From: Mesostigma viride
Lineage: Eukaryota > Streptophyta > Mesostigmatophyceae > Mesostigmatales > Mesostigmataceae
NCBI GenBank assembly: GCA_009746045.1
Contig: RPFO01000392.1
Span: 920,627 to 984,626 of the forward strand
Length of the DNA stretch: 64,000 nt
Reading direction: 5' to 3'
How positions within the stretch are numbered: position 1 is the stretch's first letter; each line of letters starts with the position of its first letter. The notes beneath the pieces are model-generated. The model did not search any database. It was not told the origin of the DNA and worked only from the letters and a program-made list of their open reading frames with translations. The position numbers and the translations under genes are program-made. Shown here one piece after another: positions 15,843 through 61,957 of the stretch.

Positions 15843-17031
15843 TCGTTAGGCACTAGATGGGGATGTAATCCTCATTCGAGCTGTCCTCTACTGTAATGGC
15901 AGTGACGAGGCGGTAGCGTAGCGGCTATCCTCAGGACCAATAACCTCCACCTGCGGACTTCTACCCTGGCTAGCGCCTAGCAACGGGCCGCGGGGCCCGT
16001 GGGGAGAAAACAGGAGCATACCCCTCAGGAAGGTGCTTATCGCAGATGGCAGCCCATTTCTCCTTGTCGAGGAGCTGGAGGACCACCGCCAGGCCCAGCA
16101 ACGGGAGGTCACCGACCGCGCTCGCCGCGAGTGCCGAGTGGTGCTACGTCGCTTCCCCCAGAAGCCAGGTGAGACGTCAACCTCTCTTGCTGACGAGCTC
16201 AAGAACCAGCTTCTTACCGCTCATGGGCCTGGTAGGTGAGGTAGAACTGCGTGGGTGCCACCGCCTTCCCCACTCACGGGACAAGGCGGCTCCCCCACCA
16301 GTCCTACTCACCTTCTCCTCCCCTGAGGATAAGCAGCGGTTCCTCTCTCGTCGCAAGCGGTTGCACGACCTCACCTGGACGCTGGATGACGACCTCACCC
16401 CCGCTCAGCAACAGCAGCGATGCGACCTGTGGCCGGAATACCTCCGCCATAAGCAGGACCCCCAGAAGCCAAAGGTGTACTGGAGGGGCGGGGACCTGAT
16501 GATCAACCACAAGATGTGGACGCCCCCAGCGGGCTAGAATAGCAATAGCCCTAGCTTGTAACCATTGGCGTCACTGCCGCTAAGGCAGCCATGCCTAGAA
16601 TGTTGCCTAGCTGTGCCAACACACCTAGTCACGTGCCGCCAACGCACGGTACAACCAGCCATAGCCTTAGCCTAGTCCTAGTACAGCCATGCTACGCCCT
16701 GGCTATGTTCAGATTACTTGCCCACGCTCCTTGCTATGATATGCTCACATGGGTCTTATTGCACCCACAGTTTGCCGGATCGTTAGCCTGTCCTTTTAGC
16801 TAGCCGCGCCCGATTGCAGCTGTGGCATGCCTTTGGCATGAAGGAGACTGGGGGTCTCTGCCCTTTCTCCTGTAGTGCACACACAGGGATTAAAAGCACT
16901 TCGGTGCTCCGTGACTCCCCAACGGGAGCACGAGTTTAATTAATTAATTAATTAATTCTCCTTGTCAATCATGCGGGCGCGGAGTACGGATAGTCCCAGA
17001 AGCCCTGCATCTTCAAATTATATGCTGCATC
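15785..17031 (-). mobile_element. second type-C LINE 3' fragment, split by an ORF1-only insertion
   Basis: 15785-16068 and 16956-17031 join into the same C-terminus and 3' UTR seen at 15040-15370. They are separated by the 887-bp insertion described next. The coding end again reads SSDEDYIPI-like on the minus strand. Confidence 0.75.
16069..16955 (+). mobile_element. 5'-truncated ORF1-only retroelement with target-site duplication
   Basis: Flanked by a perfect 11-bp duplication TTCTCCTTGTC (16058-16068 and 16956-16966). It contains the ORF1 C-terminus in broken frame (DKQRFLSRRKRLHDLTWTLD, then DLTPAQQQQR, then PKVYWRGGDLMINHK, stop at 16537), about 375 bp of 3' UTR, stem-loop CTCCCCAACGGGAG at about 16915 and (TTAA)n directly at the duplication. 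There is no RT between ORF1 and the tail. This is a textbook target-primed insertion that fixes the 3' structure of the family. Confidence 0.85.
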
Positions 17032-17290: not shown

Positions 17291-20200
17291 TGCGCATTGA
17301 ATTGAATTGAATTGTAACATAACTCCGTTGGGAGTATATGTAGCACATAGCCCTTGAGAGGGGGCATATGGCCTATCATACATCCTAAGCTACTTCCTGC
17401 AAGGGTGGGGATGTAAAGGACCCTTGCTCTAGGCCGGTGCACCACGGCACTTGCATCCCCATGATCTTCAAGCTATGCCCAGCGAAGGGGGAGCCTGTCA
17501 TGGGGGGGAAGATCAGCATAGCTATACAAAAGCTAGGGCATGGCGTCTCAGCAGAGAGTTACTCCCTGCATGGGCACAACATAACTAAATAAAGCTAGGC
17601 ATCATCTGGAGTGTGGCTCATCATAGGCACACATGTACATGATTAAAAAAAGCGCATGGCTTAGCTGGGATAGTGCCTCTAGGAGGCGTACATGTACATG
17701 GCCACGGTCTATCTATGCTACACTACTACTGCTGTATTCCCCTAAGCTGGGGCGTCTGGAGTCGCTGGGGCCGCGGGGGTCGCCTGCCAGGGCTTGTGGC
17801 CGACGTAGATGGCCGCCCCCTTCCAGTACACCGGCTGCCCCGCCTTGGTCTGCCGGCCGTGGAGGTAGGTCGGCCATAGCTCCCGTCGCCGTTGTTGCTG
17901 CGCCAGGGTCAAGTCGTCATCAATGGTGAAGAGAGTCTTCTCGAGCCGCTTGCGGCGTCGGAGAAAAGAAATCTTGTCCGCCGGGGTCTTAACCCCTAAA
18001 TGGTCTGGCTGCCGATTTTCCGCCTAAAACTGAGTTACAGCCGACACGTCGGCCCCTTCTCGGGGGACCAAATGCCGCGAAAACTATTGAGAATTAGGAA
18101 AAGTTTAGCTGAGAAGATCGAAAGTTTATAATTTTCCTCACAGCATGGTACTAGGGTTTGCATACTTCTGACAAAGTTATAGAGGTGTTCTGGTCGGTCA
18201 AAGTACAAGGGGTCAGGGTACTTTTTCGCGTACAACGTGCATTCCGGAAAACGACGACCTGGCCATGGCGGCTTGCGCCCACGCATGGCATTTACGTTTG
18301 CGTTCGAATTTTCTGGCCAAACTTAAGATATTGATTTTATACGTCCTAAAGATGATACAGGCCAATTTTTGGTTCGCGGGAATGCCATTTGATAGGTTTC
18401 GGCAGCGTTCTTGCTGGAAAAAACTGCGATCAGGCCGGACGATAGAAACGTTGACAGCAATACCTTTCCGGCGTATTTTAAAGGATATATTGGTTTCTTT
18501 GTACTTTTTATGATACATAGTAGTCGTAAACGTGCAAGGGTGGCCAGAAATCGCCGAATCCAGCGACCATGCTGCACAACTTTGGTGTGCCGAAATGCCC
18601 CATTTTGCGGCCACCGCCTGGGCCAAGGTAACGCCATCCATGCCTGGTAAAGCTTAAGCATCGTTTTCCTATCGATGTTTGACGTTTATATATACGTTCT
18701 AGCTTGTGTAGCACATTCTTTTTGCATTATTCATGCTCTTTCTTGACCCTGGCCTGGCCCCTTTCTAAAACACCCTTCTTAGATGCTTCCATCAGTCAGT
18801 TGACCTGCCACAGGGTGATGGTGATAAGTTTTAGAGGCTGTATGGGTTTGAATACCTCCATATATGTTTGTTATACATTTCCCACACACATATTGCATGA
18901 GTGTGAGGCAGTTGGCTGGTCTCTGTGGCATCATCAAGCATGTAACCGGTGAGTAGAAGCTTCCCATTGTCAGCATGTGCCACCAGGTGTGCTGGCCATC
19001 ACCTGGCAAGCTATAGCAGCTTAGGCCTAGTTTATCCTTGCTAGGGCAAGCTGAAATAGGCTTAAAATCACTAGTTTGTTGGTGGCTGCCTCCTAGAATG
19101 CATGCCTTGCGTAGGGTATCCGTACCACGTTACCTACGTGCATGGACAAGGTGGCACCTGCACATAGGTGCCATGTAAGGGCAGTGTGATGATGCAGTTA
19201 TGTTTCCCCATCATTGTGGAAGGGAAATGTATTGTGTGGCATGGTTGGGGGCCATATTAGTTGGTATTAGTAGGTAGTATGCCCACTCCTACCCCCTTGG
19301 TTGCTTTTTACCAACGGTACCCCTATGGGCTGTACTGGGTGTAACTGCTGGTATACCCACCCAAATGATGACCCCAATGGCTCAAACTGTTCAGCAACTA
19401 ATTTTTTATCATCCCTGAAGTGGTAGGTGCCTAGCTCTTACAACATAATTCAAAATGCACATTCTACCAAAAATGAAAACGCTCGTCTTGACCCCCCTGA
19501 CTTTGACGGCAGTTATACATGGCCTAACCTGCATATATGTAAGGTTGTGATATACCAACCCGAAGGGCAACTCATGGACATGCTTGGCCCCCAAGGACAG
19601 CCATTGGATATGGGTGGGTTGGATGGCATCTGGTTTGCAAAATTGTGAAGTTACAGCCGATGCATCGGCAGTATTTCTGCCCATTTAGGGGTTAAAGGTG
19701 AGAAGGAGCGGGGGCGGCCCCGCCTTACCCCGCGCGCGGGGAAGGCGGTGGGCGACCAGCTCGATCTCGCCAGTAAGGCCCATGCGATCAAGGATTTCTC
19801 TCTCAAAAGCGCGCGCAAGCTTTTCGGAATTCTCACCTTCCTCCATCTTGAGGTTCTTGACAATGACGTTGAGGCTACGCTTGGCGAGCTCGGCCTCCTC
19901 GCGGAGGTCAAGCGTCTGCCGTTGGAGCTGGGCTGCGACGGCGGAGGTGGTGGAGGTGGTGTGTTGCTTAAGCATGTCCGCCCAGGTGGTGATGGGAGGA
20001 GCATCGCCGGCCAGGCCAGCCGGGGCTGGCTTGGCGGCAATGTCCTTCACCGCCTGGGCGGTGAGGCCTGCGGTGTTCTGCAGAACCTCGATAGCAATGG
20101 CGTTGTCCTTAAGACGCTGGTCGATGTCGCGGAGCTGGGCGGTGATGGAGTCGGTGGAGGCGGAGGGGGGGGGGGGCCGGGTGGAGGCGAGGAGGGCGGC

Positions 20201-20343
20201 GGTGGCGGTGGGGATGGTGGGGAGCTCAGCAGCCAGCGTGCCGCCAATTGCCGCCACATCTGCAGCAATGGGCGTCACGTGCTGTGAGAGGGCGGCGTGG
20301 AGGTGGTGGACGAAGGTGGATTCGGTAATGGGGGCGGGGTTGT
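17290..20343 (-). pseudogene. ORF1-only retroelement copy, interrupted by a TTAA element
   Basis: Minus-strand ORF1 runs 20343-19696 and 17988-17740. It is split by the TTAA transposon at 17989-19695. The halves join in frame: LLLTF before the insertion and PADKISFLRRRKRL after it, matching LLTFKSMGDKLAFLKCRKKL in the copy at 28725. The 5' end is lost at 20343. About 400 bp of 3' UTR leads to the stem-loop ACTCCCAACGGAGT at about 17325 and an (AATTC)n tail. Confidence 0.8.
17989..19695 (+). mobile_element. TTAA-target DNA element, copy 1 (non-autonomous, piggyBac-like)
   Basis: Element 17993-19691 (1699 bp) bounded by TTAA on both sides and by inverted repeats CCCCTAAATGG...CCATTTAGGGG. Removing the element and one TTAA restores the ORF1 reading frame around it. 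Subterminal palindromes AGCCGACACGTCGGCC (18039) and CCGATGCATCGG (about 19658) lie about 40 bp from each end. No transposase frame was found. TTAA duplication and ends starting CCC are hallmarks of the piggyBac superfamily; that assignment is inference. Confidence 0.9.
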
Positions 20344-21203
20344 CACGTCCGTGATCATTTACGTCCGTGCACTCAAGAAGTTACGCGATTGCCGTAATCG
20401 GAATCGTTACGTCCGACGTTTGGTTGGTTCCGATTCAGTATAGGCCGCAGGCTTTGTTCCTTGGGCCGGTGTGGAGCGCCGCGCCGGAAAGACCTGAATT
20501 TCTAGAGTGACAGTCTTAGGTGACCTGACTTAGGTTCGGGCGCAAGACTTTGGGGCACAAAGCCTTGGTGGCTTGCGCAATATTCCGGTGCGTGACATTT
20601 GGCAGTTATGAATCTTTTGTATTGTCCAGACGGAATGATGTTCAGTCCATCTGACAAAGCTAGATACGTAGATCGTAGTGTGCGGTGTGCTGGCTCGCAC
20701 GTGGCTGTCGAATAGACTTGCTCTGCATTTTGCTGGCAGTCTAACTGCACGTCAGGCGGCTTGCTGGCAAATGCGACAGCGCATGGATGCCGGGATTTTT
20801 GGAGGTATTTAGGAGCACAGCAGCGGCCATGGTGGTCGTTGTTCGCTCGTTACTCTCCCTCACAACTTGGTGTTGTCGTCAAGGGGTTTAATAGTGGAAC
20901 AATCCGGAGCAGCCCCCGAGAGTGGTTGCAATGAGTAATTGTCATGAGATTGGTTGACGGAAGTGATAACTGTTTGGTTTCGTCAAGATGATGTGTGTAT
21001 TGTGGGCGAGACTCGGGAAGGAACCCGGTCGTCGTTGGCCAGTGAGCCATAGCTGGGGTAAGCGGGATAGGTAGACAGGATAGGGGGCGCTAAAGGACAC
21101 TGCCAGCCGTAAGCCAAGCGGAGCAGTGTGGCGTCACCCGAGGCCTGCTAGGTTATCAAGAACCGCTTAGCCTTATTTGGACAGTGACGCACAAGTACGA
21201 CAT
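20344..21203 (+). repeat. duplicated segment A (empty-site copy)
   Basis: 20344-21097 is a near-identical copy of 21829-22377 plus 24075-24280. It contains the uninterrupted site AAGGGGTTTAATAGTGG at 20881, which is occupied by the TTAA element in the other copy. Its last 106 bp (21098-21203) is the exact reverse complement of 24299-24403 or so in the other copy. No gene is recognised. Confidence 0.85.
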
Positions 21204-21828: not shown

Positions 21829-24413
21829 TCACGTCCGTGAGATCTCATTTACGTCCGTGCACTCAAGAAGTTACGCGATTGCCGTAATCGGAATCGTTAC
21901 GTCCGACGTTTGGTTGGTTCCGATTCAGTATAGGCCGCAGGCTTTGTTCCTTGGGCCGGTGTGGAGCGCCGCGCCGGAAAGACCTGAATTTCTAGAGTGA
22001 CAGTCTTAGGTGACCTGACTTAGGTTCGGGCGCAAGACTTTGGGGCACAAAGCCTTGGTGGCTTGCGCAATATTCCGGTGCGTGACATTTGGCAGTTATG
22101 AATCTTTTGTATTGTCCAGACGGAATGATGTTCAGTCCATCTGACAAAGCTAGATACGCAGATCGTAGTGTGCGGTGTGCTGGCTCGCACGTGGCTGTCG
22201 AATAGACTTGCTCTGCATTTTGCTGGCAGTCTAACTGCACGTCAGGCGGCTTGCTGGCAAATGCGACAGCGCATGGATGCCGGGATTTTTGGAGGTATTT
22301 AGGAGCACAGCAGCGGCCATGGTGGTCGTTGTTCGCTCGTTACTCTCCCTCACAACTTGGTGTTGTCGTCAAGGGGTTTAACCCCTAAATGGTCTGAGAT
22401 CCTGCCGATAAATCGGCTGGATCTTCACAATTTTGCAAACCAGATGCCATCCAACCTACCCATATCCAATGGCTGTCCTTGGGGGCCAAGCATGTCCATG
22501 AGTTGCCCTTCGGGTTGGTATATCACAACCTCACATATATGCAGGGTAGGCCATATATAACTGCCGTCAAAGTCAGGGGGGTCAAGACGCGCGTTTTCAT
22601 TTTTGGTAGAATGTGCATTTTGAATTATGTTATAAGACCTAGGCACCTACCACTTCAGGGATGATAAACAATTAGTTGCTGAACAGTTTGAGCCATTGGG
22701 GTCATCATTTGGGTGGGTATACCAGCAGTTACACCCAGTACAGCCCATAGGGGTACCGTTGGTAAAAAGCAACCAAGGGGGGAGGGGTGGGCATACTACC
22801 TACTAATATGGCCACCAACCATGCCAAACAATACATTTCCCTTCCACAATGATGGGGAAACATAACTGCATCATCACACTGCCCTTACATGGCACCTATG
22901 TGCAGGTGCCACCTTGTCCATGCACGTAGGTAACGTGGTACGGATACCCTACGCAAGGCATGCATTCTAGGAGGCAGCCACCAACAAACTAGTGATGTTG
23001 AGCCTATATCAGCCTGCCCTAGCAAGGATAAACTAGGCCTAAGCTGCTATAGCTTGCCAGGTGATGGCCAGCACACCTGGTGGCACATGCTGTCAATGGG
23101 AAGCTTTTACTCACCAGTTACGTGCTTCATGATGCCACAGAGACCAGCCAACTGCCTCACACTCATGCAATATGTGTATGGGAAATGTATAACAAACATA
23201 TATGGAGGTATTCAAACCCATACAGCCTCTAAAACTTATCCCCATCACCCTGTGGCAGGTCAACTGACTGAGGGAAGCATCTAAGAAGGGTGTTTTAGAA
23301 AGGGGCCAGGCCAGGGTCAAGAAAGAGCATGAATAGTGCAAAAAGAATGTGCTACACAAGCTAGAACGTATATATAAACGTCAAACATCGATAGGAAAAC
23401 GATGCTTAAGCTTTACCAAGCATGGATGGCGTTACCTTGGCCCAGGCGGTGGCCGCAAAATGGCGCATTTCGGCACACCAAAGTTGTGCAGCATGGTCGC
23501 TGGATTCGGCGATTTCTGGCCACCCTTGCACGTTTGCGACTACTATGTATCATGAAAAGTACAAAGAAACCCATATATCCTTGAAAATACGCCGGAAAGG
23601 TATTGCTATCAACGTTTCTATCGTCCGGCCTGATCGCAGTTTTTTCCAGCAAGAACGCTGCCGACACCTATCAAATGGCATTCCCGCGAACCAAAAATTG
23701 GCCTGTATGATCTTTAGGACGTATAAAATCAACATCCTAAGTTTGGCCAGAAAATTCTAACGCAAACGTCAATGCCATGCGTGGGCGCAAGCCGCCATGG
23801 CCAGGTCGTCGTTTTCCGGAATGCACGTTGTACGTGAAAAAGTACCCTGACCCCTTGTACTTTGACCGGCCAGAACACCTCTATAACTTTGTCAAAAGTA
23901 TGCAAACCCTAGTACCATGCTGTGAAGAATTTTATAAACTTTCGATCTTCTCAGCTAAACTTTTCCTAATTCTCAATAGATTTCGCGGCATCTGGTCCCC
24001 CGAGAAGGGGCCGATGCATCGGCTGGAACTCGATTTTTGGCGGAAAATCGGCAGCAAGACCATTTAGGGGTTAATAGTGGAACAATCCGGAGCAGCCCCC
24101 GAGAGTGGTTGCAATGAGTAATTGTCATGAGATTGGTTGACGGAAGTGATAACTGTTTGGTTTCGTCAAGATGATGTGTGTATTGTGGGCGAGACTCGGG
24201 AAGGAACCCGGTCGTCGTTGGCCAGTGAGCCATAGCTGGGGTAAGCGGGATAGGTAGACAGGATAGGGGGCGCTAAAGGATGGGGGCGTATATATAGGAT
24301 GTCGTACTTGTGCGTCACTGTCCAAATAAGGCTAAGCGGTTCTTGATAACCTAGCAGGCCTCGGGTGACGCCACACTGCTCCGCTTGGCTTACGGCTGGC
24401 AGTCAGTGAACGG
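21829..24413 (+). repeat. duplicated segment A' carrying TTAA element copy 2
   Basis: Second copy of segment A. It starts TGTCACGTCCGTGA like the first, is interrupted at 22378-24074, then continues to 24280. It has an extra 18 bp with TATATATA and then the 105-bp block in the opposite orientation to that in copy A (24299-24413). An LTR begins almost immediately after (24417). Confidence 0.8.
22378..24074 (-). mobile_element. TTAA-target DNA element, copy 2 (inverted)
   Basis: Element 22382-24070 (1689 bp) with flanking TTAA (22378-22381 and 24071-24074) and ends CCCCTAAATGG/CCATTTAGGGG. It is inverted relative to copies 1 and 3 and very similar to them throughout. The empty site is preserved in the sister duplication at 20881. 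Subterminal palindromes are CCGATAAATCGG-like (about 22403) and CCGATGCATCGG (about 24012). Confidence 0.9.
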
Positions 24414-24416
24414 GCA

Positions 24417-25244
24417 TGTGCCGCATGTTTAAGTTCTGTTCCATAAGTGACCCAGTCATTCTGTGACTGACCTTGAACTTTGGTTGTGAATGGTTGGCTT
24501 GAGATCACGTTATGATTGTAACTGCCACACAGTCAGAAAAGAACCGGTTTGGTGTGGCCACGTTGTAGGTAGATCATAACTGCTACCCAGTAGCTGAGCC
24601 TGGAATTGTTTAAAAGGCGAAGCTACGCACCTTGTTTGCTCTCTTAGTACCTCACACCTCACACACTCCTGTGGTGGAACTAGCAGCCGGCCAGCTGCCG
24701 ACTGAGACTTATTTTTATCTGAGTGAAATAAAGTAAAACTTCAGTTTCCCAAGCAGAATGGATATGGCTACGCACTACTATGCTATACGCGATCTGGACC
24801 ATACGCAACGAGACAGTCTTTAAGGTCCGCGAGGAGTATACCCGCGGCGGCGTAGTCCGGCGCTTTATATACCTATGGAATGCGGCTATGCGCCGCTACT
24901 GGCTGTTAGCTCAGGAACAACACAGGGTGTGGGACCCAGGGCCCAATAACGACAAGCCCAGCCCGCTCCAGCTTTTTCATGATCTACTGGGCCGTAATCA
25001 GGTATTCACCAGTATGCCTCATGGCGACATCACTCAGGTCCAATGGCTTCCCTGGTCTAATAACGCGCCCTATTAGCCTTTCACCTGTCACCGCCACACG
25101 TGTGTGTGCCCACCTTCATTAGGATTCGCTGATACTCATTTCCCCTCTCACCTCTTTGGTCCATAATTGGCTAATAAAATATACCCATTTCCCCGAAAAA
25201 TAAAGTAAAACTTTGTTTCAAACATTGTTTTCTCACTCCTAACA
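24417..25244 (+). mobile_element. solo-type LTR, interrupted by a LINE fragment
   Basis: Starts TGAACGGGCATG and ends TCACTCCTAACA, like the 366-bp LTR at 63012-63377. A 456-bp LINE fragment (24742-25197) interrupts it. The bases after the LTR (TACGCGAGC) do not match the primer-binding site at 63378, and no 5-bp duplication was found. It is therefore a solo LTR or a rearranged end. Confidence 0.8.
24742..25197 (+). mobile_element. 5'-truncated L1-like LINE 3' end
   Basis: Flanked by a 16-bp duplication AAATAAAGTAAAACTT (24726-24741 and 25198-25213). The target includes the AATAAA of the LTR. The frame ending at 25076 carries the C-terminal motifs TIRNETVF, RRFIYLWNAAMRRYW, WDPGPNNDKPSPLQLFHDLL and VQWLPWSNNAPY, shared with 61958-62766. 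A 3' UTR of about 120 bp ends CCCCGAAAA with no long poly(A). Confidence 0.88.
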
Positions 25245-27674: not shown

Positions 27675-28240
27675 ATTAAGAAAATTAAATTATAACAAGA
27701 CTCTGTTGGGAGATCATGTAGCACGTATTCTATTGAGTCTGCGGATACTAGTCGCAATTGACCTCGATCTTACATTGCACATAACAAGTACTTATCGCCA
27801 TTTAAAAAATAAAATTAAATTACAACATGACTCCGTTGGGAGATCATGTAGCACATCTTCCTTGCTGGATGGATAGAGGTGGGCAAAGCCACGGAATCGA
27901 ACTCAGCTAACTCTTAGCTATCTATTTTAGAAAATCCTAACTACGCTACTCAGCAAAGCGCCCCTTCCGCTTGGGGGAAGGGGGCTTGCCCACAGGGGCT
28001 GGCGCCAGGTTCACACGCGTGTGAGCCTGGACAATCTAGCGGTTGATATTAGTTAGTTTCGGCTACGTCCTCTAGGTTTGTACGTCACACTACAACCAGA
28101 TTCCAGCCGTGGTCAACTAGCTGCCTACTTCGGCGATACTAGAATATCGCGTAGGTCCGTGCGTAGTACTCCTGCGCACTTAGTTAGGTCTAGTGGTGAG
28201 TCATCTTCTATCAATTAATTAATTAATTTTCATCTTCTAT
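27675..28240 (-). repeat. stacked LINE 3' ends (minus strand)
   Basis: Two stem-loops of the type CTCCCAACGGAG (inverted, about 27702-27715 and 27829-27843) are each joined to an ATAATTTAATT-type tail. The second is followed by the 3' UTR and basic coding end seen at 33250-33360 (to about 28040). (TTAA)n occurs at 28212-28228. All are 3' remnants of the RT LINE family. Confidence 0.6.
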
Positions 28241-30257
28241 TAATTAATTAATTAAAATCATAGCTCCGTTGGGAGCATATGTAACACATAGCCCTGAGAA
28301 AGGGGCATCTATGGGTTTGTAATACAATCAGGGCTACAACCTGCAGGTGGAGGATGTACAACTATCACCTGCTCTGGGTGCACAAGGTGCACCTGCACCG
28401 CCATGATGGTTCATGCCTCCTTACCAAGCACAGGCACCCAGGGGGGGCTTGAGGAGAGGGCCTAGAAGGCCTGCATGACATATGGGGTGGAAGGTATGTG
28501 GCTAGGCTATAGCTGGTGTACACATGGCATCTCAGCAGAGAGTAACTCCCTGCATAGGCATAGCAGGGCTAAATTCTTAATGCATCATCCATGGGAGGTC
28601 CCATTGTAGGCTGGGCGCGGCTAAATAGTGAAAGCATCATCCATGGGGGCCATTATGGGCGCACATGCGCGTGGCCCACATGCTAGGCTAGGCCTGACTA
28701 ATCTACACTACTGGTATAGGTTCCCTAGTCTGAGGTGGCAGGGGGGGCCTGCCATGGCTTGTGGTCAACCTGGATGACCGCCCCCCTCCAGTACACCGGC
28801 TTCCCCCCTGCGCGCTGCCGGAGCTGAAGGTAGGTCGGCCATAGCTCGCGTCGCCGCTGTTGCTGGGCCAGGGTCAAGTCGTCGTCCAGCGTGAAGCGAG
28901 TCTCCGAGAGCTTCTTGCGGCATTTAAGGAACGCCAGCTTGTCCCCCATGGACTTAAAGGTGAGAAGCACGGGTGCCGGGCCAGCCTTACCCCGCGCGCG
29001 GGGGAGGCGGACAGCCGACATGTCCGGCAGCTCACCAGTGAGTTGCATGGGGGCAAGAATGTCGCGCTTAAGTGCCGTGAGAAGGCTCGTCGGGGTCTCA
29101 CCTGCCGGCTGGTCGAGGTGCTTGACGATGACGTTGTGGCTGCGCTTGTCGATCTCGGCCTCCTCGCGAAGGTCGAGGGCTTGTTGCTTGAGTTGTGCCG
29201 CGATTGTGAAGGTGGTGGAGGTGGTATGATGCTTAAGCAAGTCCGCCCAGGTGGAGGGAACATCACTGGCTGGGCCAGCAGGTGCCGGCTGGGCAGCGAT
29301 TTCCTGCACCGCTTGGGCGGTGAGGCCGGCGGTGTCATGCAAGCTCTCAAGGGCGGTGGCGGTGGCTTGAAGGCGTTGGTCGAGGTCGAGGAGCTGGGCT
29401 TTGATGTCGGCAGTGAAGGCGGAAACGGCGGTGGAGGTGGAGGCGGCGGCGGTGGAAATGTGAGGAAGTTCAGCAGTCAGCGTGCCGCCGATTGCTGAAA
29501 TGTCGGCAGCACTGAGGGGGGTCACGTGCTGCTGGAAGGCTTCCGTCAGGATGGAACGGATTGTGGGGGCGGAGATGGATGGAGCCCAGATCTCGCCATC
29601 GGAGCGCTTGAGGAGGGAATTGAGAAGGGTATGCTGGAGTTCGGGGCGGGTGGTCCCGAAAAGCAGGTGGATGTTAACCCAGCGGATGCCGTTCCGGGGG
29701 TGAGGAGGCGATTGGTGTCGTGGAGATGGAGGCACAGGTCGTAAAGCGAAGCGTAGTCCCCGAAGAAGATGCATGTCATAGCATCGGTCGGGGGCATGTT
29801 GTCCCAGTCGTAATCATCGACCTGGAAAGGCCGGGGCCGAAAGCGCGGTTCTGAGGGGCGTGAAGACCCTCCTGTTTGTCGGGCGCGTTTAGGGTCAGGC
29901 GATGCTGAGGGCGAGGCGTTGAGCCCGGGAGGTTGCTGGGCGACCACCAGTGCACGACTAGTGTCACTGCTGCCTGCCGGACCTGGCGAAGCTGCAGCCT
30001 GAGCTGCAGACGGGTTTTCATGGCCGAGCGCATCCGCCAAACTGCGTTGCGTCGGGGGGCGTTTGCTCGTCATATATTATTGCGTTTTAGATTCGGAAAA
30101 TTATATCAGCATGTGCGTCTTAGAAAGACGAAGCGATAGTGATATTCACGGCTAAATTCGGTGCTCAAACGTGAAAGTTATGAGCTCCGACAGCCATGGC
30201 TACCTCGTGGCCTATGATGTGCCTATGATGTGTTTAGTTAGGGGTTGTGTTTATGGG
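28241..30257 (-). mobile_element. full-length ORF1-only retroelement (HAL1-like)
   Basis: 2017 bp flanked by a perfect 12-bp duplication TTCATCTTCTAT (28229-28240 and 30258-30269). Minus-strand order: 5' UTR of about 180 bp, ORF1 (30073-28725), about 450 bp 3' UTR, stem-loop GCTCCCAACGGAGC (28262-28275) and (TTAA)n touching the duplication. The 5' UTR matches that of the element at 36977-39192, so the 5' end is genuine. No reverse transcriptase or endonuclease is present. Confidence 0.88.
28725..30073 (-). CDS. LINE ORF1-like RNA-binding protein, one frameshift
   Basis: Starts at ATG 30073 (MTSKRPPTQRSLADALGHEN). The first frame covers about 124 aa and the second continues to a stop at 28725 (about 325 aa). 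The shift lies near a G5 run at about 29695-29700, for a total near 450 aa. The N-terminus is Pro/Ser-rich and basic. The middle has a predicted alpha-helical stretch (LLDLDQRLQATATALESL). The C-terminal half resembles the RRM plus C-terminal domain of L1-type ORF1 proteins: NVIVKHLD, RLPRARGKAGPAPVLLTF, DKLAFLKCRKKL, LDDDLTLAQQQRRRELWPTY and GKPVYWRGAVIQVDHKPW. Such proteins coat their RNA as trimeric chaperones (family knowledge). The same ORF occurs in at least five other copies here. The indel may inactivate this one. Confidence 0.8.
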
Positions 30258-30520
30258 TTCATCTTCTATAGATTCAGCAATATCAGACATATTGGCACCC
30301 CTCTCCGGTAAAGAGGTTTTTCGCAGTTGGGCTGTTTCGAAACGTTTTAAAAGTGAGATGCCTTCGGATCAGGAGACTCACCACACAGCCGCGAAATCAT
30401 GCCAAAGATCCTATGTTCGATTCCTTGCTGGTAGCTTCTAGGCTTTCTTACTTTCTGTGTTCCGCGGAATCTCAGATTTGGGCAGCTAGCGTTTTCACGT
30501 TTGTTGCTTTCTGACGACAA
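30258..30520 (+). repeat. dispersed repeat shared with 53.16-53.37 kb
   Basis: The stretch with CCGGTAAAGAGGTTTTTCGC, CTTCGGATCAGGAGACTC and GTGTTCCGCGGAATCTCAGA is present inverted at about 53155-53370, and partly at 14640-14790. It was the target of the ORF1-only insertion above. An internal-promoter-like B box GTTCGATTCC occurs at about 30417, but no tRNA fold is convincing. Confidence 0.55.
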
Positions 30521-32118: not shown

Positions 32119-33510
32119 GCAACAGGGGCATGCAATAGGGCTCTTTGGGCCATCCTAGCTCTGGACCGAGTGCCACCAGCGTTTATTGCTGCCATTCGCC
32201 GACTGTATGAGGGCTCACAGGCAGTAGTGCGGACTGCGGAAGGCACCACCCCACCGGCCATTCCCCCTTCACCACGGGGTGTGGCAAGGTTGTGTCCTGT
32301 CCCCATACCTGTTCATTATTGTCGTGGACCACGTCATGCGCCAGGCACATGCGCGCTTTACTGCTCTTAAGGGGTTCGAGCCAGGCTTGGACATCCTTAA
32401 CGAGCGTGGGCACGGCGGGGTTAGCACGGGTTAGGTACCGCCTGGCTGATCTGTGATTTATGCGGACGACATGCACCACCCTCATCGCGCGCCCCGAGCA
32501 CATTCAGACCTGGCTGGACTGTCTGGGCCTGCATGGAGGCGAGGGCGGCACCTGGGGTTGGAGATTAGTGTCAAAACTGAGGCGATTGTGATTGGGGCCT
32601 CCAGTCGTCCACCGCTGACGCGCCTGCTCGATGGGACGGAGGTCCCATTCCGCGACCGCTTCAAACTATTGGGGAGCATGCTCCCTGACACCGCCGATGA
32701 TGTGGACGTCCGCATTGGCCTGACCTGGGCTAGGCTTCGTTCGCTCAACACCTACTGGCGCTCAAAGGGCCTGGTGGACGAGCACCGCAAGCGCATGCTC
32801 TTCAAGGTCGATCCTCGTCCTCACGGTGCTCACGTATGGCGCCGAGGCGTGGACACTCACGGCAACACTGGCAGCTATAAGCTAGACGGCACGGCCACCA
32901 GGATGCTTCGACAGGTCCTGAACGTCGGGTTTTCTCAGCGTAGGTCATTAGAGTCTTTGTATCACGGTATATGCCTCGCATTTCGGATGAGATTAGGCGC
33001 AGCGTAGGATAGCATTTGTAGGACATCTTGCTCGCACCAGCCAGGTCGACACCGCCCTTGGTCTGGCCGGTCCCCAGCGGCTCGGCTAACCAGGGCGGCA
33101 TATTTTGACCTGCATGGCCTGGCCCCAAGAACATTCCTAAAAGGGTAGGGAAACATGCCATGACCTATTATACCCAGATGTTGCTGGACGACCTAGTGGT
33201 CCCAGCAGCCCAGTTTTAGTACCGCATCCGGCCTCTCTCTTCCTTCTCTGGACTGCCATGCAGGACAAGAAGCGGTGGCAGAAGATTGTCAAGGCCCACA
33301 CGCCAGCCCCTGTGGGCAAGCCGCCTCCCCCCAAGAGGCGGAGCCGTTTTGATGAGTAGCGTAGATAGGCTTTTCTAGACTAGATATAGCTTAGAGTTAG
33401 GTTAGTTCGATTACGCGGCTTCCTCCACTCCACCCATCCCGAACCTGGAATATGTGCTACATGACCTCCCAACGGACAGGCATGTTATAATTTAATTTAA
33501 TTTATTAGGG
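32119..33510 (+). pseudogene. LINE reverse transcriptase (palm and C-terminal region), 5'-truncated
   Basis: Encodes in broken frames LDRVPPAFIAAIRRLYEGSQ, a region equivalent to G-V-RQGCPLSPYLF (about 32275-32330), a YADDM-type catalytic box (about 32457), KTEAIVIGAS, FKLLGSMLPDTADDVDVRI, VLTYGAEAWTL-like and GHLARTSQVDTAL. The basic C-terminus DKKRWQKIVKAHTPAPVGKP stops at 33357. The 3' UTR ends at an inexact stem-loop at about 33467 with a TTTAATTTAATT tail. This is the most informative RT copy in the window. Indels make it inactive. Clade placement (RTE/CR1/L1 side) needs a tree. Confidence 0.8.
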
Positions 33511-33595: not shown

Positions 33596-35399
33596 TTAAC
33601 CCCTAAATGGTCTGGCTGCCGATTTTCCGCCTAAAACTGAGTTACAGCCGACACGTCGGCCCCTTCTCGGGGGACCAAATGCCGCGAAAACTATTGAGAA
33701 TTAGGAAAAGTTTAGCTGAGAAGATCGAAAGTTTATAATTTTCCTCACAGCATGGTACTAGGGTTTGCATACTTCTGACAAAGTTATAGAGGTGTTCTGG
33801 CCGGTCAAAGTACAAGGGGTCAGGGTACTTTTTCACGTACAACGTGCATTCCGGAAAACGACGACCTGGCCATGGCGGCTTGCGCCCACGCATGGCATTT
33901 ACGTTTGCGTTCGAATTTTCTGACCAAACTCAGGAAATTGATTTTATACGTCCTAAAGATGATACAGGCCAATTTTTGGGTCGCGGGAATGCCATTTGAT
34001 AGGTGTCGGCAGCGTTCTTGCTGGAAAAAACTGCGATCAGGCCGGACGATAGAAACGTTGACAGCAATACCTTTCCGGCGTATTTTAAAGGATATATTGG
34101 TTTCTTTGTACTTTTTATGATACATAGTAGTCGTAAACGTGCAAGGGTGGCCAGAATTCGCCGAATCCAGCGACCATGCTGCACAACTTTGGTGTGCCGA
34201 AATGCGCCATTTTGCGGCCACCGCCTGGGCCAAGGTAACGCAATCTATGCCTGGTAAAGCTTAAGCATCGTTTTCCTATCGATGTTTGACGTTTATATAT
34301 ACGTTCTAGCTTGTGTAGCACATTCTTTTTGCATTATTCATGCTCTTTCTTGACCCTGGCCTGGCCCCTTTCTAAAACACCCTTCTTAGATGCTTCCCTC
34401 AGTCAGTTGACCTGCCACAGGGTGATGGTGATAAGTTTTAGAGGCTGTATGGGTTTGAATACCTCCATATATGTTTGTTATACATTTCCCACACACATAT
34501 TGCATGAGTGTGAGGCAGTTGGCTGGTCTCTGTGGCATCATCAAGCATGTAACCGGTGAGTAGAAGCTTCCCATTGTCAGCATGTGCCACCAGGTGTGCT
34601 GGCCATCACCTGGCAAGCTATAGCAGCTTAGGCCTAGTTTATCCTTGCTAGGGCAAGCTGAAATAGGCTTAAAATCACTAGTTTGTTGGTGGCTGCCTCC
34701 TAGAATGCATGCCTTGCGTAGGGTATCCGTACCACGTTACCTACGTGCATGGACAAGGTGGCACCTGCACATAGGTGCCATGTAAGGGCAGTGTGATGAT
34801 GCAGTTATGTTTCCCCATCATTGTGGAAGGGAAATGTATTGTGTGGCATGGTTGGGGGCCATATTAGTAGGTATTAGTAGGTAGTATGCCCACTCCTACC
34901 CCCTTGGTTGCTTTTTACCAACGGTACCCCTATGGGCTGTACTGGGTGTAACTGCTGGTATACCCACCCAAATGATGACCCCAATGGCTCAAACTGTTCA
35001 GCAACTAATTGTTTATCATCCCTGAAGTGGTAGGTGCCTAGCTCTTACAACATAATTCAAAATGCACATTCTACCAAAAATGAAAACGCTCGTCTTGACC
35101 CCCCTGACTTTGACGGCAGTTATACATGGCCTACCCTGCATATATGTAAGGTTTCTTCAGGGTTATTCTCCCAGTCATCGGTTTTTTCCTTATGTTGCAT
35201 GCCTATCTCACCTTCGTAATCTATCATTCTCAATGAATATATGTAAGGTTGTGATATACCAACCCGAAGGGCAACTCATGGACATGCTTGGCCCCCAAGG
35301 ACAGCCATTGGATATGGGTGGGTTGGATGGCATCTGGTTTGCAAAATTGTGAAGTTACAGCCGATGCATCGGCAGTATTTCTGCCCATTTAGGGGTTAA
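33596..35399 (+). mobile_element. TTAA-target DNA element, copy 3
   Basis: Element 33600-35395 (1796 bp) with TTAA at 33596-33599 and 35396-35399 and ends CCCCTAAATGG/CCATTTAGGGG. It is nearly identical to copy 1 except for an 85-bp insertion at 35152-35236. It is inserted in another ORF1 copy at GCGGCATTTAA, a site different from that of copy 1. The intact equivalent (GCGGCATTTAAGGAACGCC) is visible at about 28917. Confidence 0.9.
35152..35236. mobile_element. 85-bp micro-insertion inside TTAA element copy 3
   Basis: Flanked by a perfect 12-bp duplication ATATATGTAAGG (35140-35151 and 35237-35248). It is absent from copies 1 and 2. Its size and duplication fit a severely 5'-truncated LINE or SINE. 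Its family is not otherwise seen here. Confidence 0.75.
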
Positions 35400-36344
35400 A
35401 CAACAGCAGCTTATCCGCCATGTACTTAAAAGTTAAAGGTGAGGAGCACGGCCGGGCCGGGCCGGGCCAGCCTTACCCCACGCGCGGGGAACGTGGACGC
35501 AGCCGATCGACATCCGCGCGCAGCTCACCAGCTAGCTAGTGAGTTGCATGGGGGCCAGCAAGATTGTCGCGCTTAAACGCTATATATGGCAAGAGACTCC
35601 GAGTTCTCACCTGCCGGCTTGTCAAAGTGCTTGACGATGACATTGTTGTGGCTGCGCTGGGTGAGGCCAGAAATAGAGGTGGATATGATGCTCAGTCATC
35701 TGAGCTGTCCTCTACTGAAATGGCCCAGACAATGCGGTAGTGTAGCGGCGCTCCGTATCTAGCTCAGGGGTGAATAATAACCTCCACCGGACTAATTCTA
35801 CCCTCCATGCTAGCAATGGGCCGTGGGGCCTGTGGGGATAAAACAGGAGCATGCCCCTCAGGAAGGTGCATATCGCAGACGGCAGCCCATTTCTCCTAAT
35901 TGTCTCATCATGCGGGCGCGGATATAGTCCCAGAAGGCAGAAGCCCGGCCTGCATCCTTTGAAAGCAGTTGTGTCACATATAGGTCCGGGTCGCACTGCG
36001 TCGGTACATGGCGCGCGAGAAAGTTTGCCAGTGGGTTGCATGCGACTGTCCAGATGAGGGGAACCGTTCTGCCAATTAAAGGAGGAGGTGTCTACCTGGT
36101 TGGCCCACCCGTCCTCCCGCCGGCAGGCGGGGCCGGCCCACAACATCAGTATCACGTCAATCCGGCCGGCTTCGCTCCAAAGTGTCCGCGGAAATTCCAG
36201 GGAAATTTTGACGAAATTCGGTGCGCGCGGGAGTCGGGAGATGTTGAGTGCACATTGCATTGCGAAGGCTATTGAATTGAATTGCATTGGAACATAATAA
36301 CTCCGTTGCCCAGAGTATATAGTAGCACATATCCCTGAGAACAT
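35400..36344 (-). pseudogene. decayed ORF1 and type-C LINE fragments
   Basis: 35400-35690 keeps ORF1 words on the minus strand, with CCCCGCGCGTGGGG- and CACTTTGACAAGCCGGCAGG-type sequence. 35690-36120 matches the type-C LINE C-terminus and RT end seen at 15100-15500. About 36275-36330 contains an (AATTC)n-like tail and stem-loop. Frames are heavily broken. Confidence 0.5.
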
Positions 36345-36976
36345 ACCCCTCGACCACCGCGGCCCCAGCGACTCCAGAAGCCCCAGCCTATAGGGGAATA
36401 CAGCAGCAGTAGTGTAGATCTAGAATAGTTAGACAGTGGCCTTGTACATGCCCGCCTACTACAGGCACTAGCTATACCAGCTGAGGCCTAGCCTTTTTAG
36501 TCATGTACATGTGTGCCTATGATGAGCCACCCTCCAGCTAGATGATGCCTAGCTTTATTTAATTATGCAGTGCCCATGCAGGGAGTCACTCTCTGCTGAC
36601 AAGCCATGCCCTAGCTCTTGTATAGCTATCTATGCTGATCTTCCCCACCTACTGATGACGGGCTCCCCTTAGCTGGGTGTTGCCCGAGACTCTGGGTGGT
36701 GCAGGTGCCCTAGTACACCTAGAGCAAGTGTTGTTTACATTCCCACCCTTGCAGGAAGTAGCTTAGAATGTATTATATAGGCCATATGCCCCTTCTCTGG
36801 GCTATGTGCTACAGATACTCCCAACGGAGTTATGTTCCTAATTAATTAATCAACTAATCCCCAGGTGAGAAGGGGCAAATGGCTTTTAACGCACTCTGGG
36901 CTACTTCCTGCAAGAATAGGGTGTAATGTAAACTACACCTGCTCTGGGTGCACAAAGTGCACCTGCACGCCACTAT
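36340..36976. repeat. ORF1-only 3' UTR remnants, tail-to-tail
   Basis: 36370-36850 is an inverted match to the 3' UTR at 17340-17740, ending in ATACTCCCAACGGAGTTATG (about 36822) and (TTAA)n. From 36862 the 3' UTR of the outer element (39193-41480) runs in the other direction. The two tails abut. Confidence 0.55.
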
Positions 36977-39192
36977 TAATTAATTATAATTAATTAAACA
37001 CGTGCTCCCGTTGGGGAGTCACGGAGCACCGAAGTGCTTTTAATCCCTGTGTGTGCACAACAGGAGAAAGGGCAGAGACCCCCAGTCTCCTTCATGCCTA
37101 AGGCATGCCACATGCAGCTGCATTCGGGCACGCTAGCTATAAACAGACACGCTAACGATTCGGCAATCTGTGGGTGCAATAAGACGTACCCATGTGAGTA
37201 TGGCATAACAGGGAGCGTGGGCAAGTAATCTGATCATAGCCAGGGGCGTAGCATGGCTGTACAAGGACTATAAGCTAAGGCTATGGCTGCATGGTTGTGT
37301 ACCGTGCGTGAGCGGCGCACGTGACTAGGTATGTTGGCACAGCTAGGCAAACATTCTAAGCATGGCTGCCATAGCGGCAGTGACTACCTATGGATACAAG
37401 CTAGGGCTATTAGGCAAGCTATTCTATAGCCCGCTGGGGGCGTCCACATGCATCGATTGTGGTTGATCATCAGGTCCCCGCCGGCCCCTCCAGTACACCT
37501 TGGGCTTCTGGGGGTCCTGCTTGTGGCGGAGGTATTACGGCCACAGGTCGCGTCGCTGCATGCTGCTGCTGAGCGGGGGTCAGGTCGTCGTCCAGCGTCC
37601 AGGTGAGGTCGTGCAACCGCTTGCGACGAGAGAGGAACCGCTGCTTGTCCTCACGCCCGAGTTTTTCTAATGAGATTAGCATAGTACTCCGTGACATGCC
37701 GTTTGCGCATGACACGCAAGTACTTACTTACTTACTTACCTCACGGGAGGGCCGGGAACTGAGGTGAGCAGGACTGGTGGGGGAGCCGCCTTATCCCGTG
37801 AGTGGGGAAGGCGGTGGTGACCCATGCAGTTCTACCTCACCGACCAGGCCGGCCCATGAGGGTAAGGAGCTGGTCCTTATATAAGCTCGTCCGGGCAACC
37901 TTGGGAGGTTGACGTCTCACCGGCCTGGCTTAATTCTGGGGGAAACGACGCAGCACCACCCGGCAGTCGCGGCGGGCGCGGTCGGTGGCCTCCCGTTGTT
38001 GTGCCTGGCGCCAGAAGGTCTTCAAGCTCCTGGAGCTTCGTAGCGATGGCGTCGGTGGTGGAGGTGGTCGCTGCCCGGCCGGCCGCAGCAGGTCCGCGTA
38101 ACGGAGAGGGGCGGGAGGTCACCATGCATCCAGCCGGGGTGGCTGGGATGCGATGGTGGCCGTCTGCTCCGCTATCTTTAATTGCATGGGACCTGTGAGG
38201 CCAGGGCCTCGGTGTGGGCGGTGATGGCTTCAAGCTTCTTCATGAGCTAGCACGCCGCACTTGCCCTCCACCTGGTTTAGGCCGAGAGACAAGTGCAGCG
38301 TGTGTCTCAGATGCCTGCGCCGCAGTGTGCAGGGCCGTGAACTGGGGTTGGATCGAGCTTGTGGACGACCTTGGTTTCCACATATTGGAGACCCGGGCCT
38401 CGGCCACCGTGTTGAGCGTCGTGTTCAGCGAGGTCAGCTTCTCGGCCAACGGCCAGGTCACGTGCTCCTCCAGCACTGCTCGGGTGTCCTCCTTGCAGAG
38501 GGAGGAAGCCGAGGTGGCGCTGTCGGCCGCGCAGGCTGGGCTGGCCGGCCGGTGCGGAGCTGAGCGATGATGGCGGCTTCAGTGAGCTGGAATTTTGGCT
38601 GCACAGGATAGCGAGGCGCAGGGTATGCACGTCGTGGAGGATGGGCCCGCCGTGCCCCATGAGCTTGCCTTAAGTTGCTAAGAACTTGACTATTTCGGAG
38701 CAGTCGTCCTTCGTCAGGGCCAGCCAGGCGCTGAAAGAAAAGAAGTCGTGGCTTGGGAGGTGGTGGCTCCATTTGTTTTCGTGGCAGCCTGGTTTCTTGG
38801 GCTCTGGTGAGGCGCTTGGCGATGGGTTTCCTGGCGGTGGGTTTGTGCCGGGCCCAGTCGGCTGGGCAACGACGATATCGATGGCGAGTGCAGGTTGGGC
38901 TGCATGGGAGCCGCCGGAAAGCTCCTTTTCCAAACTCGATCCGTTAATTTTGCTTTTTGGGTCGTCATAGCTGCTTGTCACGTGAGTAACTTTGTTTGGC
39001 ATGCAATACTGCGTTTCAGCCGTAACCGATTATACTGGCGTGTGCGTTTGAAAAAAACGCATCGAATGCAAGTGGTCTGACCGAATTTGGGGCTCAGACG
39101 CAAAAGACCTGAGCTCCGCCGTCAGCCATAATATGATACTGCCGTCAGCCATTTTCGTTGTTTTGGCCCTCAGCTGGATTGATGGATACACA
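36977..39192 (-). mobile_element. ORF1-only retroelement, apparently full length, nested
   Basis: 2216 bp flanked by TGCACGCCACTAT (36964-36976) and TGCACACCACTAT (39193-39205), a 13-bp duplication with one mismatch. Minus-strand order: 5' UTR matching 30100-30200, decayed ORF1 (39002 to about 37470, start MPNKVTHVTSSYDD, end with LSRRKRLHDLTWTLD and DLTPAQQQ), 3' UTR, stem-loop CTCCCCAACGGGAG (about 37008) and an AT tail. A type-C tail is inserted at about 37660-37745. The insertion lies in the 3' UTR of another element of the same family. Confidence 0.75.
37660..37745 (-). mobile_element. type-C LINE tail micro-insertion in ORF1
   Basis: About 75 bp comprising CTAATGAGATTAGCATAGTA, TCCGTGACATGCC and (ACTT)n, set between two CCTCACG words that form a probable 7-bp duplication. 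It splits the ORF1 segment at DKQRFLSRRKRL. Confidence 0.65.
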
Positions 39193-41480
39193 TGCACACC
39201 ACTATATGACTATCCTATAGCACCTACCGAAAGGCGCTGGCATAGGGGGGGGAGATCATCATGGCTATGCAAAGGCTAGTAGGGCATGGCCTCTCATCAG
39301 AGAGTGACTCGAGATCTGTAGTACTTATTAGGCAGGGCTGAGCTAAATTCTTAATGCATCATCCATGAGGGTCCCACCATTGTATATAGGCAGGGCATGG
39401 CTACATTCTTAATGCATCATCCATGGGGGCCATGTTATGGGCGCACAAGCGCTCGTGTGGGCCACGTGGTATAGGCTAATAAGCCTTACCGTACACTACT
39501 GCACTAGATTCCCTAGACTGGGGCATGGCAGGGGGCCGGTGCCTGCCAGGGCTTGTGGTCGACGTGGATGACGTCCCCCCGCCAGTATACCGGTTTCCCC
39601 CCTGCATGATGCGCTGTGCCGGAGCTGGAGGTAGGTCGGCCATCTGATATAGCTTGCGTCGCCGTTGTTGCTGGGCCAGGGTCAGGTCCTCGTCCAGCGT
39701 GTACATAGCGCGAGTCCTCCTCGAGAGCTTATTGCGGTTTTTAAGAAACAACAGCTTGTCCGCCATATATACTTAATGATTGGATTGCTCTTTTCGCGGA
39801 CCTCAACGCCCAGGGACGTGCGTGGCTGTTCTCGCTTTCCTTGCGGAGTGTGGGCTCGGCGTACCTTCGTGCTCTTCCCATGGCCCCCCCATTCGCCTTG
39901 GCTCCCAGCCACTACTCGGTGGCGCTGCGGCACCAGCTATTTGCCCCGCAGCCTCTTGTTCCGGCCGGGCGGCCTTGTGGTAGCTGTGGGCAGCCGCTGG
40001 ATCCCACGGGAACTCACTACCTTTCCTGCATGGGGGGCCAACAGAATCAGAATTGGTATTTGTATTTGCACACTGTCCTCCTGACGGTGGTGCTCGCCAT
40101 GATTCGGTCGGTTTTCCCCCACGCGAACATCCGGTCCGAGGATGCGGATGGCGCTGCCTTCTATTCCCCCAACCACCGGCCTGACATCGTGGTGCTGGAC
40201 TTTGAGGGGGGTGGCCGGCATCTGCTTATCGACGTTTCGGTGGCGCGGCCCTTGGCTCTTAGCCACGTGGCTGGGGCCTCCCTCACGGCAGGTTACACGG
40301 CGGACCGGGCGGAGCGGGCCAAGCTCCTGCATGGCCTACGGCGACGTCGGGCACCATCGTGTGGTGCCCTTTGTCCTGGAGGAGTTTGGGGCCATGGGGC
40401 CCCTGACCTCCGCCTTCTTCAAGGAGTGTTGCCGGCTCCGGGAGGACCGGCTGGACCTGGAGGGCCAGCGGGCCTCATGGTCGGCGCGGACCTGGACGTC
40501 ATATTGGCGTCAGCGCTTGTCGGTGGCGCTGACTCGGGCCATGGCTGACATCATGCTCCGCCGTACGCGGGCTGATTTTGCGGTGCAGCAGGGCTATTAG
40601 GTTCCTCCCGTTAGGCGTTTCCATTGGTCTTATCGTAGTATAGAGATTTGACATGGCTCTGTATAGAGGTTTATAGCTGGGCGTTTGCTTTGGTTTGAGT
40701 GATTTCACTCTGCTGTAAGTAATTATATTATTAATATATACTTAAAGGTGAGGAGCAGGGGAGCCGGGCCAGCCTTACCCCGCGCGCGGGGACTAGGCGG
40801 GCAGCCGACATCGATCCGCAGCTCACTGAGACTGTGATGTGCATGGGGGCAAGAATGTAGCGCTTAAATGCCGTGAGAAGAGTCGCCCATCGAGGTCTCA
40901 TCTGCCAGCCGGTCCAAGTGCTTGACGATGACATTGTGGAGCCCTGCGCTCACTGGGTGCGGTCTGGGCCTCCTCGCGGAGGTCGAGGGCTTGTTGCTTG
41001 AGCTGTGCCGCGATGGTGGAGGTGGTGGTGGTGGAGTGGTGCTTGAGCAGGTCCGCCCAGGTCTGGGTGCATGGGAGGAGCATCGCTGGCCGGGCCAGCA
41101 GATGCCGGCTGGGCAGCGATGTCCTTCACCGCCTGGGTGGTGATGCCTGCGGCCCGCGCGGTGTTTTGCAAGCATTCGATGGCGATTGATGGCGTGGTCG
41201 TGGAGGCGCTGGTCGATGTCGTGGAGCTGGGTTTTCAATGTCGGCGGTGGAGGTGGAGGCGGCAGTGGAGGTGGAGGCGAGGAGGGTACGTGGAGGTGGA
41301 GGTGACGGTGGTGGAAATGTGAGGGAGCTCAGTAGCCAACGTGCCGGCCCATTGCTGCCACATCTGCGGCAAGGTGGGTCGCGTGCTGCTGGAGGGCCTC
41401 CGTACTGAGGATGGAGTGGAGTGTAGGTGCGGCCGGAGATGGATGGAGCCCAGATCTCGCCGTCAGACGTACTTTGTGAG
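39193..41480 (-). pseudogene. ORF1-only retroelement copy, interrupted by an R2-like LINE
   Basis: Minus-strand ORF1 pieces are 41480-40746 (AAQLKQQALDLREEAQ region, decayed) and 39776-39510 (MADKLLFLKNRNKLSRR, then YTLDEDLTLAQQQRRRKLYQ, then 3' UTR). They are separated by the insertion 39777-40733. Multiple indels are present. Confidence 0.7.
39777..40733 (+). mobile_element. 5'-truncated LINE with CCHC finger and restriction-like endonuclease domain
   Basis: Flanked by a perfect 12-bp duplication ATATATACTTAA (39765-39776 and 40734-40745). The main frame (about 39810-40345) encodes CGSCGQPLDPTGTHYLSC, a C-x2-C-x10-H-x4-C finger. It then encodes RPDIVVLDFEGGGRHLLIDV, matching the R/K-PD-x(n)-D core of PD-(D/E)XK nucleases found after the RT in R2/R4/CRE-type LINEs. 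One frameshift near 40335 leads to a second frame (VVPFVLEEFGAMGPLTSAFF, then WRQRLSVAL) ending at 40600. The 3' UTR is about 130 bp without poly(A). Confidence 0.8.
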
Positions 41481-42420: not shown

Positions 42421-42477
42421 AATGAGTGGATGCATGCATGCATGCATGAATGAATGAACGGATGTATGAATTCAATG

Positions 42478-61807: not shown

Positions 61808-61957
61808 GAGATCGCACGTGCAGTCGTGCACGGCGTGGGATACAACTTCAACTCGCTAACTAACGTGCATGGCAACAGTAATTGGTGTAGACTGCTCAGC
61901 CGGGCCGTTTGATTGGCCCCGAGTCCAGCATTTTTTTTTTAAAGCAGGCCGCAAGTC

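Follow-up and report, generated by a model that had tools for sequence, protein, structure and literature searches.

HAL1, the half-LINE of mammals, has a poly(A) tail and an ORF1 protein (ORF1p) of the coiled-coil/RRM/CTD type. A different kind of partnership is represented by UnaL2, a stringent-type LINE with a SINE partner that has the same 3′ stem-loop. HAL1 has been described as non-autonomous and as encoding ORF1p alone (PMC5753468), and in the guinea pig, the coding capacity of its ORF1 is reported to have been long retained, which was read as the combination of an ORF1p acting in cis and an ORF2p acting in trans (PMC3627910). Across the titles and abstract openings of the literature searched, HAL1 is the named half-LINE, and no ORF1-only LINE is described outside mammals.

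Here, we describe a retroelement of ~1.97 kb on the minus strand of the window, i.e., the whole 64,000-nucleotide stretch of Mesostigma viride DNA that was analyzed (GC ~53%). The element at 28241–30257 consists of a 5′ UTR, a single ORF1, and a 3′ UTR that is followed by a hairpin and a (TTAA)n tail (Table 1). We assign a probability of about 0.75 to the reading of this unit as a non-LTR retrotransposon that is non-autonomous, codes for ORF1 alone, and is copied in trans by a separate LINE. Both the perfect 12-bp target duplication and the layout with one ORF1 that the original prediction had read from this locus were recovered, but the frame of the window copy is not intact, as it is broken by a frameshift.

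Table 1 Positions of the element, its ORF1-only relatives, and the RT-bearing LINE in the window
Feature	Position	Strand	Remarks
Target-site duplication, 3′ side of the element	28229..28240		TTCATCTTCTAT, identical to 30258–30269
(TTAA)n tail	28241..28255	-	
3′ hairpin	28259..28281	-	CATATGCTCC-CAAC-GGAGCTATG, one bulged base
3′ UTR, ~440 nt	28282..28724	-	Abuts ORF1; contiguous with ORF1 in 32/32 places examined
ORF1	28725..30073	-	Start 30073, stop 28725; frameshifted here (ORFs 30073–29546 and 29774–28725)
Common 5′ UTR	30074..30212	-	Present in 22 near-full-length copies
Private 45-nt leader, from target duplication to common 5′ end	30213..30257	-	5′ end of the element at ~30257; other near-full-length matches begin at query 46–47
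Target-site duplication, 5′ side of the element	30258..30269		TTCATCTTCTAT, exact 12 bp
Family C, near-full-length copy, 2.2 kb	36977..39192	-	Target duplication TGCAC[G/A]CCACTAT at 36965–36977 and 39194–39206
Family C, 5′-truncated copy	16069..16955	+	11-bp target duplication TTCTCCTTGTC
Family B copy	17297..20380 (limits approximate)	-	Split by nested 1.7-kb repeat; hairpin 437 nt past ORF1; (AATTC)n tail
RT-bearing LINE fragment	32140..33505 (5′ limit set by hand)	+	RT C-terminus with YADD, 3′ UTR, hairpin, (AATTT)n-like tail

Directly beside the element's tail, the target sequence occurs once more at 28202–28240 (TCATCTTCTAT), with (AATT)n separating both copies, and this looks like a tail-only insertion into the same target. 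A repeat of ~1.7–1.8 kb is present at 33596–35400, 17989–19696, and 22377–24074 (93–99% identical); the copy at 33600–35395 has TTAA flanks and inverted ends (CCCCTAAATGG/CCATTTAGGGG), and both this copy and the one at 17989 sit within an ORF1. The repeat resembles a non-autonomous DNA transposon of the piggyBac type. The long GAGG-type low-complexity tract at 42450–43940 (GC 0.70) contains spurious long frames on both strands.

The genome (440 Mb in 2243 contigs) was searched with the whole element, and the best 40 of 8464 first-look candidates were scored. These included at least 22 near-full-length copies with both ends alike (query ≤47 to ≥2010), 20 of them with identities of 92–100% and two with 84%, so the unit is more than a chance arrangement. 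The predicted conserved 5′ end was likewise found across copies, except that the first 45 nt (30257–30213) are the window copy's own, since the alignments of the remaining 21 near-full-length copies begin at query positions 46–47. In 11 of the 30 loci that were fetched, ORF1 is open over ≥440 aa (447–454 aa).

The copies carry the marks of non-LTR retrotransposition, with a constant 3′ end and a simple tail, scattered 5′ truncation, and no LTRs. Exact target duplications flank 15 of 20 full-length loci (in one case within an ATCC repeat), and their variable length of 9–16 bp is that expected of non-LTR retrotransposons mobilized by target-primed reverse transcription. Four of the 20 (L005, L011, L018, and L020) lack a clear duplication, and L021 lies in a simple repeat. 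The closest pair of copies, L021 and L022, have bodies that are 99.75% identical at different sites, and the next pair is 99.7% identical; the family has thus moved recently and is a young element.

An RT between ORF1 and the 3′ UTR, which was absent from the window copy in the original prediction, was looked for genome-wide with a query of the 3′ UTR only, chosen so as not to favor RT-less copies. The best 40 of 3728 candidates were scored, and 32 of these 40 places were examined, 12 via whole-element alignments that cross the border between ORF1 and 3′ UTR and 20 via the newly fetched upstream kilobase. In every one of the 32, ORF1 lay directly upstream of the 3′ UTR, with no RT in between. 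The outcome that would have refuted the original prediction, an RT ORF in most copies, was thus not observed among these 32. In each of the 20 newly fetched loci, the match extends beyond the 3′ UTR into the terminal part of ORF1 (just ~70 nt in the two shortest); in seven, it spans all or nearly all of the fetched kilobase, and in 13, it stops at scattered points within ORF1, as expected from 5′ truncation.

Searches for a parent LINE with both ORF1 and RT found none among the best-scored 40–150 candidates per search, in loci that end short of the 5′ half of the RT LINE. A match of ORF1 from a further family (D, see below) in a 1936-aa open frame of contig C2022 was considered as an ORF1-RT fusion and rejected, as the next 201 bases are the usual stop and 3′ UTR and hold no fusion on that side. 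When the genome itself was searched for RVT_1 (150 matches listed, 30 loci fetched), none of the 30 loci matched the element by BLAST, and of the 12 in which frames were read, ten were Ty3/Gypsy-like and two group II intron-like; this search therefore did not show the helper. Two RTs on contig C2011 (L031 and L032) resemble bacterial group II intron proteins, and C2011 may be a bacterial contaminant in the assembly.

The layout of ORF1 followed directly by a 3′ UTR is not restricted to the given family. The near-full-length unit at 36977–39192 had been taken for a second copy with the same 5′ UTR; it is 0.37–0.72 identical to the window element per 100-nt block along its length and belongs to a distinct related family, C, in which ORF1 again precedes the 3′ UTR and which has its own 13-bp target duplication with one mismatch in this copy. 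The unit at 16069–16955 is indeed a clean truncated ORF1-only copy, with a duplication that was read from its flanks, yet it also belongs to family C rather than to the given family. Family B has a hairpin 435–444 nt downstream of ORF1 in three loci, and a further relative in L011 has one 481 nt downstream. Altogether, 21 diverged or broken ORF1 ends were checked for a downstream hairpin with the CAAC pattern, which was present in 10. The 11 ends without it comprise seven with <1 kb of sequence, two of family D (L004 and L029), and the ORF1 fragments L012 and L026, where no such hairpin was found within 2.5 kb downstream.

Family D (L029, L004, L085, and L086) has 3′ ends that could be read at two loci, which are identical over 412 bp and consist of ORF1 and a 3′ UTR that is followed by a perfect hairpin of its own and a tail of the TTAA type. 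The hairpin (CACGTGAC-GCA-GTCACGTG) is unlike the CAAC hairpin in sequence, so the latter is not needed by all families. A search with the ORF1 of family D gave 15,179 first-look candidates, of which the best 150 are 95–100% identical, with a 487-aa frame in ~40 of these 150 scored places (counted by eye). Where 3′ ends are readable, the ORF1-only layout is thus found in the given family and three diverged families, two of them in the window, and probably in a fourth.

The recurrence of this layout in diverged families bears on the alternative that the copies arose recently by internal deletion from an autonomous LINE that still exists, with the same ORF1 followed by EN/RT and the same 3′ UTR. 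Precedent exists in HAL1 itself, which is described as an L1 derivative that has arisen several times (PMC5753468), and a rare parent could be missed, since only the best 40–150 candidates were scored. The same layout in several families speaks, however, against simple recent deletions, as does the lack of an RT in all 32 places examined among the best 40 of 3728. A third argument comes from two loci in which an ORF1 of family D and the RT LINE occupy the same strand, with ORF1 433 nt upstream. In the one that was read, L085, a complete family D 3′ end with its tail is followed by a short filler and then by a 5′-truncated RT LINE, which makes these two elements in a row and not one LINE with ORF1 and RT. 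We therefore regard internal deletion as unlikely, and the reading of the copies as ORF1-only half-LINEs is supported both by the 32 RT-free places and by the layout common to diverged families. The junctions themselves (L085 400–460 and C1106:1601683–1602116) could possibly have formed by a template jump between two RNAs or by adjacent insertions, and the same 433-nt spacing in two contigs means that they may be one event.

The RT-bearing LINE is the likely helper that supplies the enzyme, to judge from its abundance and its 3′ end. Its RT matches PF00078 (E 6.7e-18) as well as, by sequence, the structures of R2 and L1 ORF2. In a DNA search, the best 40 of 6080 candidates were scored, and in a protein search the best 113 of 27,441, which (the query's own copy aside) are 96–97% identical to the query. 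A frame of 605 or 615 aa is present in 75 of these 113 copies by hand count, although the copy at C102:323399–325762 extends further upstream. One copy shows a 12-bp target duplication and plain 5′ truncation. Upstream of the RT in L084, the motifs LDYVVV and SDHRLV, which we take to be LINE-endonuclease-like, accompany a sub-threshold Pfam endonuclease match (E=0.24) and mark a candidate endonuclease C-terminus; a stop in L081 separates the RT frame from the upstream frame, and endonuclease and RT may therefore be encoded by two ORFs.

Some loci of the RT LINE are composite. Short 3′ fragments of the half-element are present in L081. In L082 (reverse complement 4453–5577) and L084 (1–1112), two RT LINE copies break off at different points and meet one common border (...CCCCAATATGCT) of a sequence that is at least 1.1 kb long and 96% identical. 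These junctions look like template-jump or splice chimeras. Elsewhere in the window, 61943–62683 has a weak zf-RVT match (E 0.035) and is 59% identical to 24741–25073; the two may be fragments of another LINE type.

When the 3′ ends of the RT LINE and the half-element are compared by BLAST, they are similar only in the last 30–50 nt, and the tail unit differs, being (AATTT)n-like in the RT LINE vs (TTAA)n in the half-element. With up to two mismatches, CTCCCAACGGAG occurs 15 times in the window vs 5.5 expected, and most occurrences lie at the 3′ ends of several families, including that of the RT-bearing LINE at 32140–33505. The hairpin stem is partly broken in this copy and better preserved in L081–L083. 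For a comparison across copies, 24 sequences were picked by hand from 44 distinct segments in all loci, leaving out near-duplicates and those with broken or odd flanks, and fitted to a model with a 9-pair stem, one bulged base, and a CAAC loop; the structure was defined after inspection of these 24 segments, and the selection favors structure.

In this set, 95.8% of cells were paired vs 82.3% in shuffles, 36 cells were changed on both sides vs 11.2 in shuffles and 1–6 in slid versions, and the covariation score was 0.469 vs 0.203 in shuffles and far lower values in the slid controls. The other two of the five measures were at shuffle level, namely double-change pairs (5 vs 4.2) and further pair types (13 vs 12.6). 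Single-fold z-scores were −1.4 for the given family, slightly better than shuffles, and −2.2, −2.2, and −3.1 for the others. An Rfam search of the window gave no match. Judged from the aligned sequences, a hairpin with compensatory changes is common to the ORF1-only families and the RT-bearing LINE, with a 3′ hairpin like that of the LINE in the given family and families B and C and not in family D.

From this 3′ hairpin, we infer that the half-elements are mobilized in trans by the RT LINE. The endonuclease and reverse transcriptase of this separate LINE would copy the RNA of the half-element, most likely recognizing the 3′-terminal hairpin of common shape (bulged base, CAAC loop) and then the short repeat tail. 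Target-primed reverse transcription would produce the 9–16-bp duplications, and the ORF1 protein, made in cis, probably packages its own RNA.

The same two partners could also be halves of a bipartite LINE, with ORF1 and EN/RT on separate, mutually dependent elements and an RT element that has no ORF1 of its own. Both look abundant and young, as judged from the best-scored copies of family D and of the RT LINE, and three 7.4-kb loci of the RT LINE gave no ORF1 match better than E=0.26. However, the RT copies that were read look 5′-truncated or chimeric, and many LINEs function without an ORF1 of this type. We consider such mutual dependence hardly probable.

Between families, dN/dS of ORF1 was 0.22–0.51 in all comparisons but one (0.76), values that are rough owing to strong divergence at synonymous sites (pS up to 0.67), and three comparisons within families gave 0.35, 0.97, and no changes at all; ORF1 looks to be under constraint between families. 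In the given family's pair L018 and L022, 27 of the 28 amino-acid differences fall within a block of ORF1 at approximately residues 75–150 and pN/pS is 1.95, above 1, as if this block had been exchanged by recombination between otherwise near-identical copies.

The description of ORF1 as L1-type found no backing at the sequence level. Pfam gave no match (best E 0.1, and none for the C-terminal part up to E=10), and neither did a PDB profile search (best E 0.38); no ORF1 was found in viral contigs. What likeness there is comes from the predicted order of secondary structure. The C-terminal 164 residues, modeled from window sequences alone, form a helix, a beta-alpha-beta-beta-alpha-beta unit, and then alpha-beta-beta (mean pLDDT 70), and a longer model places long helices ahead of this part (mean pLDDT 52), an order that we take to be that of L1 ORF1p. 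The models are suggestive of an ORF1p with an RRM-type fold and L1 ORF1p-like order, and the product is probably an RNA-binding protein. Although a constrained ORF that is the only one of its unit might also be that of a domesticated host gene family dispersed as processed retrocopies, this is very improbable given the common 5′ UTR, a 3′ UTR ending in a hairpin and tetranucleotide tail without poly(A), and the many sites at which full-length copies lie between target duplications.

The half-elements have a further feature at their 5′ junctions. Where full-length loci have a duplication (15 loci), 17–45 nt separate it from the common 5′ end. The last bases of these leaders recur as (G)AATTCC or GAGCCAC units, and the remainder is copy-specific, except that L009 has only GAGCCAC units and L004 an ATCC repeat. 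Among four 5′-truncated copies with a duplication, L014, L028, and L029 have it right at the break, with 0 to at most 2 extra bases, and in L013 (8-bp duplication), telomere-like CCCTAAA (TTTAGGG-type) repeats fill the 5′ junction (L013 1478–1501). A leader is thus present in 15/15 full-length vs 1/4 truncated copies (Fisher's p=0.004, from a small, hand-made table in which GAGCCAC was counted as leader).

Inheritance of the leader from the source copy was rejected, as copies that are 99.6–99.75% identical carry different leaders, which therefore seem to be gained at each insertion. An exact search of the whole genome with the 22-nt leader of L007 found only its own locus, and templating from the local target was not significant (permutation p=0.15, 12 leaders); part of the L015 leader corresponds to antisense sequence from the 3′ UTR of family D. 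In published cell assays, direct joining predominated among full-length inserts of human L1 (76%) and zebrafish Nimb-2 (82%), but those of ZfL2-1 always had extra nucleotides or microhomology, with several extra nucleotides also in about half of the genomic ZfL2-2 copies (PMC4245944). As extra nucleotides are known at LINE 5′ junctions, the leaders may represent a familiar feature in an unusually long version, and they could show how the 5′ ends of LINE cDNA get joined. A bolder picture, which we hold to be quite doubtful, is that of a LINE split within one genome into an ORF1-only radiation and an ORF1-less EN/RT element, tied by the common 3′ hairpin and with a private leader of ~10–45 nt at each insertion; if it is true, a new leader per insertion would mean that foreign sequence is routinely captured at the 5′ end of the RNA.

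For the preferred reading of a half-element copied in trans, the combination of several families, ORF1 constraint, and covariation in the 3′ hairpin would identify ORF1 by itself as a selectable cargo. Two old questions become testable, namely why a passenger retains ORF1 (cis packaging) and what a LINE enzyme recognizes in its RNA.

Compared with known systems, the half-elements resemble R2 and the R2/R1 internal-deletion elements (PMC3414825) in being RT-less LINE derivatives, but R2 is site-specific in 28S rRNA genes, whereas the half-elements insert at many sites and keep a constrained ORF. With stringent-type LINE/SINE pairs (PMC5135761), they have in common a 3′ hairpin similar to the one in an RT-bearing LINE and then a short repeat tail; here, in contrast, the passenger is protein-coding (ORF1), 2 kb long, and has its own 5′ UTR. 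The likeness to HAL1 is that the half-element encodes ORF1 alone, with no RT ahead of the 3′ UTR in the 32 places examined among the best 40 of 3728. Unlike HAL1, with its poly(A), it ends in a 3′ hairpin and (TTAA)n, its ORF1 is not recognizable as L1 ORF1p by sequence, no parent L1 was found among the best-scored candidates, and four, probably five, ORF1-only families are present in one genome. As the tail differs, we do not claim membership in HAL1, and the comparison supports a half-element that works like HAL1.
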